Shown here piece by piece: positions 25,516-51,110 of a DNA stretch of 64,000 nt. The notes under the pieces are model-generated. The model did not search any database. It worked only from the letters and a program-made list of their open reading frames with translations, and was not told the origin of the DNA. How positions within the stretch are numbered: position 1 is the first letter of the stretch; each line of letters starts with the position of its first letter. Source of the DNA: Polytrichum commune (taxonomy: Eukaryota; Streptophyta; Polytrichopsida; Polytrichales; Polytrichaceae). Made by a program: the position numbers and the translations under genes. The DNA lies in contig OX485809.1 in assembly GCA_950295325.1 (NCBI GenBank), forward strand, positions 3,472,001 to 3,536,000, read 5' to 3'.

Positions 25516-28103
25516 TTAGTTGTCACCCAGAAGCGTGGATAGAACAAGCTGTTGTACGAATTTCGCACGTAGCTTTGCTTGTTTATGTTTCTCTTCGCGC
25601 TCTTCGGCTGTTAATGAGGGGTCGACACTGTTCAGCAACCACCAACAAGCACTTGTAAATACAAACACATCCGCACAGCAAAGTACAAATGCATACGATC
25701 CAAGTCACATCTCGCCCTATCAGATTGCATGGTTTAAACATGCACAACTTCAAGTATTAATCTGACAAGAACCAGACACAAGAAAGTCATGAAACAGTGC
25801 CTTTATTTAATTGACCACAGCCATGCTGATTCTAATTAGTAGATTGTTCCTGTGAGGAAGACATAAATGGCACCAAGGTGTCACAAAAGGAAGAGGATAG
25901 TTTCTGTGCAACATGCAACAATAGAGTTATCCTTTGACTCTATGGAGCTTCGAAGGTCCCCTTTCATTTTCCATTGGATGTTTTACATACAATATGAATA
26001 ATTTCTTTCCACTTGTGATGCAACTCAGAGGTAATTTTTGAGTTTGAAAGAAGACCAACCTACTTCAGTCATTGAGAGCCAAACTCATTTAGCACCTCTG
26101 CGGATGCAAGAATAGTTTGACCCTTGCTGAACCAATATACAACGTTCTTCAATCAAATTTCCATACTACCTCCAAGGAAGGTTGACCACATGCCATGTTC
26201 AATTATAGGACACCTCTAATTTAGTATAACTCCTAGCAGATAAAAGAGGGCCAGAAAACAGTTTTAAGGAGCAACTTGCCTTGGCTTTGACTGTTGACTT
26301 AGCGAGGATAGTTTCGATGGTGGTTCCTCATTAATAGCACTAGGTTTGGGAGGATCTTCAGCCTCAGTTATAGGAACATTGTACACCAAGGTGGAGAGTA
26401 GAGGATCAGTGGCATGAGACAAGCCCGACAGGCCCGACGAGCGAGATGTACCCCCTAGAAGGGCCTGCAAGTGCGCCTCCCGAAGTTCCTTCCCAAGGAG
26501 TGAAAGTGTTGCATTTGATGGAACACCAGCTCTCCTGAACCTCCTCCGACGCTGCATGTGAACTGTTGTTAAGGGTCCCTGCAGATAATAATTGATATAT
26601 CTCTATCCTTACATGGAACATTCAACACACTTACTGAAAATCTTTACATGACCTAGTAGGTAGATGTCTTTTCCATTCACTCTCTCCACTTACTCAACAC
26701 AATGATACAGGAACAGTAGATAAAGAACAACTTCAAATACTAGCAAGTTGTCAAAAGGATATCTTAAATAAGTGACCATGCTGCAATGAAATGTGTCCAA
26801 CCATGTCCTTTGGAATCTTCGCAGCACAAACAGGGCACATCTGTTCCCACATGTCACAATTAGATGTGCAGAGATAACCTAATTTGCAGTCAGCCACACC
26901 CTACATGTAGACAATCGGCACAAGAAACCACTCCAAGAGTAAACAGTCAAAAAAGTATATTAATAAAACAACATCTCTAACATAGGCTGACTATTGTGGG
27001 ATATTCAAAATGCCCTAATGTATAAAACGAAATGGATTGCCAGATTAATTACAGTTGCAAACTAGCCTTACCCTACAAGAACATCTGCAAATTCAGTTTA
27101 AAAAAATGCAGAATTGAAATCAGGTTTACAAACTTACAGCAGCTTTAGATTCAAAACAATGTTCATCTTCAAGATGTGAGCAGAGAGCAGTGACATCAAA
27201 TTCCTCGTAGCAATAAGGGCATGAAAATTCAGGTCGCAAATCCTCATCACCATCCACATCATCTAGGTTAATTTGATGACGATCTGCAAATCAAGGTACA
27301 ATGCCTATTAATTATGATTCTTAACACTGACGTGCTACACTACCTGCTAAGACACTGTTATAAAAAGAAAAAAGTTTGAATTCAATAGAGATCTCTAGGA
27401 AACTCCCATTGTTGCAACATTGCCTTGCAAACTCCATCTCTTAAAAGATGGTGTAATGCACTGACAAAAACCCGTAGATACCTCGTGCAGATTTTTGAAT
27501 GGTGAAGAATATTGGCACTGTCTAACTGCTCTTTCTTCCAAATCTAGAGAACCGCTGAGATAGCAGACAAAGTAGTCCATAAAGATGTAGAGTAACTAGA
27601 TGTAAGTTGCATCACTGTGGGCCAAACCCATACCAACACCAAAAAGGAGATAGCAATTGTAAACTTGCGACTCACAAACAGCATATCAAGAGGTCACCTT
27701 CATCATGAACAGCATCGAAAACTATCATTGCAACCTAATTAAATCAAGAGACCCAAACATCTAGACAAAATGAAGACAATCACCTTACACATTGAAGAAA
27801 ACAATGGAATCCGAGTCCTAAATTCTTTAACCTGCAACCTCGCCTTCTCGTTCAATCGACAAACATACCCACAAAGCAAGTAACTCTACAAATTTCCCAG
27901 GCACTAATCCAAATGACTAAGTCACAGCTGATCATCTTCACAGGAAGATGAAAAAAAGGAAAACATTGAAATAAAGGAGGCTCTCCATGTATATAGTTCA
28001 GCAGAAGAGTTGAGAGGAACAAACCTAGAAGGGACTGAGAAGGCTGAAGTGTGTGGTGGCGCTTTGAGGTTGACATCCGCGCAGTCCACAAGTCCCCATC
28101 CAT
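25516..28103 (-). CDS. Di19: Di19 (drought-induced 19) zinc-finger protein, 230 aa
   Basis: Five exons on the minus strand join in phase: 28103-28025, 27283-27138, 26840-26763, 26557-26280 and 25627-25516 (TAA). The protein starts MDGDLWTARMSTSKRHHTLQ. It carries two family-typical C2H2-like fingers: CPYC at 48-51 with H63 and H68, and CPVC at 77-80 with H91 and H96. A basic stretch QRRRRFRR follows (103-110, likely nuclear localisation), then the conserved LSLLGKELREAHLQALLGG (119-137), and the C-terminal KFVQQLVLSTLLGDN. Length and domain order are those of a complete Di19 protein. In other plants these are nuclear factors in drought, salt and light responses. Intron 3 is AT-AC with U12 signals; intron 4 is GC-AG; introns 1 and 2 are GT-AG. 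All key cysteines and histidines are present, so it is likely functional. Confidence 0.93.
25628..26279 (-). other. Di19 intron 4, GC-AG type
   Basis: The exon 4 end reads CCAAG|GCAAGTTGC, the classical GC-type donor context. The acceptor is GCTGAACAG|TGTCGAC. Splicing here joins phase 2 to phase 2 (AG+T = Ser) and adds the conserved Di19 C-terminal tail. Without it the frame stops after six more codons. Confidence 0.8.
26558..26762 (-). other. Di19 intron 3, AT-AC U12-type
   Basis: The donor is TTTAAG|ATATCCTTTTGA, matching the minor-spliceosome ATATCCTT consensus. The acceptor is CAGTTCAC|ATGCAG. The branch-site sequence CCCTTAAC lies at 26575-26568, with its probable branch A at 26569, 11 bases from the intron end, which is in the usual U12 window. 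Length is 205. It lies between the second zinc finger and the basic stretch, at phase 0. No GT-AG pair nearby would preserve the conserved protein. Confidence 0.9.
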
Positions 28104-50329: not shown

Positions 50330-51110
50330 ATTACGTTGTTCGGCTCGGGGACGCTACCCGTCATCGCCCGTCACTGGGCAGGCCGTCAGTCCCTGGGCCG
50401 GCAGTTAGCCACCGAGCTTCTTCCTTGCTGTTCAGCCACAAGCTAACTCTCTGCTGTCTAGCCATTGAACTTCCCCCTTGATGTTCGTCCCCGAGCTCAG
50501 CTCAATGTTGTGCGGCCCCTGAGCTAACTCTCTGCTGTCTAGCCACCGAGCTCCTCCTTGTTGTTTGTCCCCGAGCTCCGCTCAATTCTGTTAGGCCATC
50601 GAACTAACTCTTTGCTGGTCGGCCCCGAGCTCAACTCATTGCTGGCTAGCCACCGAGCTCCCGTTCTTTTCTGTTCGGCCACGAGCTCAGCTAAATGTTG
50701 TCTAGCCACTGAGTTCCCCCCTTGTTGTTCGTCCCCGAGCTCAGCTCAATGTTGTGCGGCCCCTGAGCCAACTCTCTGCTGTTTAGCCACCGAGCTCCTC
50801 CTTGTTGTTCGTCCCCGAGCTCAGCTCAATTCTGTTAGGCCATTGAACTAACTCTTTGCTAGTCAGCCCCGAGCTCAACTCATTGCTGGCTAGCCACCGA
50901 GCTTCCTCTTTTCTGTTCGGCCACGAGCTCAACTCAATGTTGTCTAGCCACTGAGCTTCCCCCTTGCTGTTCGTCCCCGAGCTCAGCTCAATTATGTTAG
51001 GCCATCGAACTAACTCTTTGCTGGTCGGCCCCGAGCTCAGCTCATTGCTGGCTAGCCACCAAGCTCCCGCTCTTCGGAGCCTGGGAACCGAGCTTCCTCC
51101 TTCGCCTTCT
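50330..51110. repeat. 27-bp satellite with higher-order structure
   Basis: Roughly 27-base units built on CCGAGCTCAGCTCAATGTTG plus a variable half (TGCGGCC, TCTAGCCA, TTAGGCCA, GTTCGTCC). Nine different units form a block of about 245 bases that recurs from near 50,490 to near 50,735; a third block is shortened. Because 27 is a multiple of three, long frames stay open on both strands, with 9-residue repeats such as WLASNELSS on the minus strand. It is GC-rich compared with its surroundings. Confidence 0.8.

Follow-up and report, generated by a model that had tools for sequence, protein, structure and literature searches.

A Di19 gene of Polytrichum commune with a probable U12-type AT-AC intron next to a GC-AG intron

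Di19 genes have already been tied to the minor spliceosome in Arabidopsis, in which Di19-2 is a U12-intron gene that has been used as an assay in minor-spliceosome mutants (PMC4892727, PMC5853960, PMC3422263). The passages of these reports that deal with Di19-2 describe defective splicing in u11-48k plants (PMC4892727), but on knockdown of 31K they conflict. In one report Di19-2 was assayed and Di19 is listed among the genes that need 31K for correct splicing (PMC3422263), whereas in another the splicing of Di19-2 in 31k lines was "not significantly altered" and the gene served as a control that gave no rescue of the plants (PMC5853960); since its splicing was not significantly altered there, the failure to rescue says little. 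Four introns are the commonest structure of Di19 genes, being found in 31 of 36 genes from seven species according to the part of that survey consulted (PMC8954995). Minor introns of land plants are described as very stable in a pan-eukaryote survey, again from an excerpt (PMC10639083), and the AT-AC U12 intron of CBP20, in passages of one study, occupies a single position in ten species of plants, with mosses, liverworts and a lycophyte among them (PMC5932401). Among the passages retrieved from the Di19 literature on U12 introns, the minor spliceosome and GC-AG introns, a search outside which most subscription journals lie, none reports an AT-AC and a GC-AG intron together in one Di19 gene.

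The gene considered here lies in a stretch of 64,000 nucleotides of Polytrichum commune (GCA_950295325.1, contig OX485809.1, positions 3,472,001 to 3,536,000), referred to below as the window. It is very probably a zinc-finger gene of the Di19 (drought-induced 19) family, and intact, in which, to judge from the splice signals, intron 3 is of the U12-type AT-AC class and is removed by the minor spliceosome, and intron 4 is a U2-type intron with a GC donor. The coding sequence, rebuilt from the DNA, runs from 28103 down to 25516 on the minus strand in five exons with intron phases of 1, 0, 0 and 2, and this rebuilding arrived at the same exon and intron coordinates as an earlier sequence-only reading of the locus. 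The features are as follows.

28025..28103, minus strand: exon 1, 79 nt, with the start codon at 28103; length and phase as in exon 1 of the paralogue described below
27284..28024, minus strand: intron 1, GT-AG, phase 1, 741 nt
27138..27283, minus strand: exon 2, 146 nt, encoding the bulk of the zf-Di19 domain (Pfam)
26841..27137, minus strand: intron 2, GT-AG, phase 0, 297 nt
26763..26840, minus strand: exon 3, 78 nt, encoding the end of the zf-Di19 domain (Pfam), last residues ...HGHLFK
26558..26762, minus strand: intron 3, probable U12-type AT-AC, phase 0, 205 nt, donor ATATCCTTTT, branch site CCCTTAAC, terminal AC
26280..26557, minus strand: exon 4, 278 nt, starting MQRRRRFRR and opening Di19_C (Pfam)
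25628..26279, minus strand: intron 4, probable GC-AG (AG/GCAAGT ... CAG), phase 2, 652 nt
25516..25627, minus strand: exon 5, 112 nt including the stop, encoding the end of Di19_C (Pfam)

The predicted protein has 230 amino acids (231 counting the stop) and matches both Di19 models well above their cut-offs, zf-Di19 (PF05605) with 84.5 bits against 27.5 over model positions 2-54 of 54 and Di19_C (PF14571) with 102.5 bits against 29 over positions 1-102 of 102. Its layout of five exons and four introns is the usual one for Di19.

The donor consensus of U12-type introns is RTATCCTT, and the donor of intron 3 fits it. The donor, the branch site and the terminal AC that had been put forward as marks of a U12 intron are all present, and the sequence supports the AT-AC reading well; the branch-site A does stand 11 nt before the end of the intron, the motif itself ending 10 nt before it. 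Intron 3 lies between two codons, directly after that of residue 101, four residues past the end of the zf-Di19 match. Passages on the U12 branch site give its consensus as TTCCTTRAY, near the 3' end (PMC5932401); the branch site ACCCTTAAC agrees with TTCCTTRAC at 7 of 9 positions. A chance background was drawn from 134,150 positions, both strands included, in 48 sequences, namely the window, with 2,700 bases around Di19 replaced by N, and 47 fetched loci, a few of them overlapping, the 10 loci of Di19 and CBP20 being excluded. In this background ATATCCTT occurred ten times, CCTTRAC was followed by AC at the proper spacing in 13 cases, and there was no pair of the two at intron distance. The looser donor ATATCC gave seven chance pairs in the same background, and what carries weight is therefore the longer donor match and the precise codon at which it stands. 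When both strands of the window were scanned for [AG]TATCCTT followed by CCTT[AG]A[CT] and AC or AG, three matches were obtained, all starting at the Di19 donor; one has the end of intron 3, and the other two combine the donor with a CCTTAAC that lies 3' of the gene and is unrelated to it.

A search of the genome with PF05605 and PF14571 (E <= 0.001; counts are lower bounds) found two Di19 loci, the window gene and a single paralogue; in the control for PF05605, one of 14 control genomes gave a match, which was below the cut-off. The paralogue lies outside the window, on the opposite strand of the same contig at a distance of about 64 kb (C7:3564277-3566278; L004 3778-5779), and has five exons as in the window copy, with the same phases of 1, 0, 0 and 2. 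Its intron 3 (L004 4690-4934) interrupts the same codon position and reads ATATCCTTTT...ACCTTGAC...TTAC, the ten donor bases being identical to those of the window copy; the branch motif is CCTTGAC, spaced as in the window copy, and the intron likewise ends in AC. Each of the branch sites CCCTTAAC (window) and ACCTTGAC (paralogue) matches 7 of 9 consensus positions, and 10 nt separate the end of the motif from the end of the intron in both. The two proteins share 162 of 228 aligned residues. Nonsynonymous divergence (pN) is 0.16 and synonymous divergence (pS) is 0.77, which is saturated, so that dN/dS between the copies is not computable; both copies thus appear to have been long under protein constraint. 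The introns have no clear similarity, with 46 to 55% identity, and 97 of 202 identical positions in intron 3, in forced alignments for which no null was computed. Nothing speaks more strongly for a probable use of the U12 signals of intron 3 than their survival in the paralogue. In a separate observation, intron 1 of the paralogue reads GC-AG with a weak donor, GCACGC, as the best of 14 open pairs.

Intron 3 might instead be cut by the major spliceosome at a GT-AG pair (donor CATG/GTCACT, acceptor AACAACAG/TTCAC), the AT-AC signals being coincidental. Rival sites were compared by taking all GT-AG, GC-AG and AT-AC pairs within 90 nt of the junctions that left the frame open, which gave 72 pairs for intron 3 of the window copy and 127 for that of the paralogue, the chosen pair included. 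The AT-AC pair described above scored highest in both copies (782), although the test is partly circular because the yardstick for each copy was the AT-AC model of the other. The GT-AG pair keeps the frame and its protein scores 760 against 782, but it turns GHLFK into VH beside the second zinc finger and its donor departs from a GTAAGT-like consensus. A further point is free of the circularity: the paralogue reads CATGCTCAA at the corresponding place, with no GT, yet keeps the AT-AC signals. Cutting of intron 3 at GT-AG is thus very unlikely. Other frame-keeping GT-AG or GC-AG readings of the intron were also less fitting among the best 8 of the 72 window pairs, which were the ones compared.

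The GC-AG assignment of intron 4, made previously on the strength of its context, agrees with what the DNA contains: the junctions read AG/GCAAGT...CAG and the predicted spliced product gives the complete Di19_C match. Of 52 pairs of sites that leave the frame open, this one scored highest with the paralogue as the yardstick. The paralogue has a GT-AG intron with the donor GTGAGT in the same place, so that a GC donor at intron 4 distinguishes the window copy from its paralogue. Sliding the paralogue intron by 2 nt to an AT-AC pair gives a score of 788 against 782, but GT-AG was chosen because the donor reads GTGAGT. In its donor and its CAG acceptor the window intron is like GC-AG introns of the U2 type, with no difference seen, and it looks like an ordinary change; since the paralogue has GT at this place, the adjacency of an AT-AC and a GC-AG intron carries no shown meaning. 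The presence of the GC donor in one copy only might also be taken as a mark of lost function in a decaying gene. However, both copies are open throughout and match both Pfam models across nearly their full length, pN is low at saturated synonymous sites, and AG/GCAAGT is a strong context in which functional GC-AG introns are usually found, so that decay of the window gene is extremely unlikely.

The assembly, in which seven contigs of 42 to 78 Mb account for about 406 of 407.8 Mb, also contains genes for the machinery that an intron of the U12 type would need. Genes for U12 (87.6 bits), U6atac (91.2 bits) and U11 (68.9 bits) all exceed their Rfam cut-offs, and a 738-aa open frame has a zf-U11-48K domain (31.3 bits against a cut-off of 21.1), which is its sole Pfam match; NCBIfam gave no match to this protein. 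The zf-U11-48K family was also above the cut-off in one of 14 control genomes, that of Sulfolobus acidocaldarius, and the match alone is therefore no proof of a minor-spliceosome protein. The family search of the genome gave no match to U4atac, and as the controls were equally silent absence is not implied. These genes, together with the Di19 gene model, its splice signals and their retention in the paralogue, are present as such in the DNA. A second U12-like locus (C1:4725816-4726008; L009 1501-1693) falls just below the Rfam cut-off, with 52.9 against 53 bits; its 5' end is intact and its 3' half diverged, and it is possibly a variant or a pseudogene.

CBP20 (C3:45603600-45606600, minus strand; L024) provides a positive control for minor splicing within the same genome. 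Read by eye, it has the AT-AC intron already published for plants (PMC5932401), which follows a 34-nt exon, ATATCCTCTC...TCTTTAAC...AC, which is of the same AT-AC U12 type as Di19 intron 3 but in a different gene. Conservation of the CBP20 intron has been published across land plants (in the passages cited above), whereas for the Di19 intron it is documented here between the window gene and its paralogue, within a single genome. Both the subtype, AT-AC, and the precise codon of insertion have survived a duplication old enough for synonymous sites to be saturated, and Di19 is therefore a candidate for a long-lived U12 target like CBP20. Arabidopsis Di19-2 and the window gene are alike in being Di19 family members with a U12-type intron. 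The window gene, with its AT-AC intron, comes from a different land plant; the passages on Di19-2 give neither intron number nor termini, so that identity of position is not implied. The known dependence of Di19 on a U12 intron is thereby extended to another land plant, and because Di19-2 is already published the case is a further example of low novelty.

It is inferred from these sequences that the introns are spliced in the way modelled, and so is any regulatory consequence. U11 would pair with the donor CCUUUU of intron 3 and U12 with the CCUU of its branch site; the U11 gene of the same genome has a complementary AAAAGG and the U12 gene a complementary AAGG. The 5' end of U11, TAAAAGGG, forms duplexes of -8.2 kcal/mol with the Di19 donor of the window copy and -8.3 with that of the paralogue, and of only -4.4 with the donor of CBP20, but free duplex energies are weak discriminators. 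Removal of intron 3 would join the last codon of exon 3, just past the zinc-finger block, to the MQRRRRFRR stretch. If minor splicing failed, a predicted stop three codons into the intron would leave the zinc fingers alone, or a target for NMD, and skipping of exon 3 would keep the frame and remove the second zinc finger.

These predicted products have a bearing on whether, beyond constitutive removal, the U12 signals of intron 3 form part of a regulated switch, in which retention of the intron or skipping of exon 3 under stress would yield a Di19 with zinc fingers only or with one finger and the efficiency of U12 splicing would set Di19 output. Translation into a retained intron 3 would meet a stop after three codons in the window gene and after 30 codons in its paralogue, and exon 3 can be skipped in frame since its 78 nt lie between two phase-0 introns. 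In Arabidopsis, At-Di19-5 is named, in the passage available, among genes under alternative splicing with NMD (PMC3591102), and the mis-splicing of Di19-2 in u11-48k plants (PMC4892727) points the same way. However, an early stop would give any intron such an appearance, and the 31k knockdowns in which Di19-2 was not significantly altered (PMC5853960) count against a switch, though the other report counts Di19 as needing 31K (PMC3422263). A regulated switch thus seems unlikely, and the proposal of the sequence-only reading that Di19 couples the stress response to U12 efficiency is unsettled.

The U6atac gene is the one component that departs from expectation. In human U6atac an AAGG sequence pairs with the CCUU of the donor. 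The sole U6atac found (C4:35254560-35254679; L010 1501-1620), in a family search that scored 46 of 23,735 candidates, reads UGAGCCGAGAGAAGG where the Rfam consensus has UGAAAGGAGAGAAGG, so that the donor-pairing AAGG is replaced by GCCG, and the three U12 introns read, those of both Di19 copies and of CBP20, keep CCU donors. The locus otherwise looks intact: a TATA stands at -27 and the gene ends in a run of seven T. A USE-like box at -64 matches 9 of 11 positions of the consensus, a best score that was also reached in 32 of 2000 random 100-mers; such a box stands at -65 in two U6 genes looked at, and the gap from box to TATA is 26 in U6atac, 24 in the two U6 genes and 27 to 29 in U11 and U12. 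Duplexes with the two Di19 donors are weaker for the U6atac found than for the consensus (-5.6 against -7.4 and -3.0 against -8.7), and with the CBP20 donor they are about equal (-7.9 against -7.8), both by way of GAGAG and outside the accepted register.

A second U6atac of the AAGG type was sought with the pattern AAGGAGAGAAGGTTAGCA, which gave 33 matches in the assembly (25 forward, 8 reverse), all with two mismatches and none with fewer, compared with 29 for the pattern written backwards. Rfam, run on all 33 (6 in loci already cut and 27 fetched), gave one U6atac match, below the cut-off (16.4 bits against 33). Pattern AAAGGAGAGAAGGTT gave five exact matches (control 6), none of them U6atac at E <= 1, and no second DNA copy of the U6atac found turned up in the assembly; the control search for U6 returned 43 matches, 41 of them above the cut-off. 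A further U6atac copy may possibly lie outside the assembly. It is improbable, if conceivable, that minor splicing in this plant relies on a U6atac with GCCG for AAGG while the CCU donors of its U12 introns, among them those of CBP20 and the two Di19 genes, stay canonical, in which case the choice of donor would fall to U11 and proteins, without U6atac pairing at +5 to +8. If it holds, this oddity would outweigh the Di19 finding, as it would test how far pairing between U6atac and the donor is needed.

Elsewhere in the window, Rfam gave no match at gathering scores, and Pfam, applied to 7 of the 17 listed open reading frames of at least 110 aa, gave one match, below the cut-off. An imperfect tandem array occupies 50406-51059, with periods of about 244, 108 and 27 bases and many words resembling CCGAGCTC.
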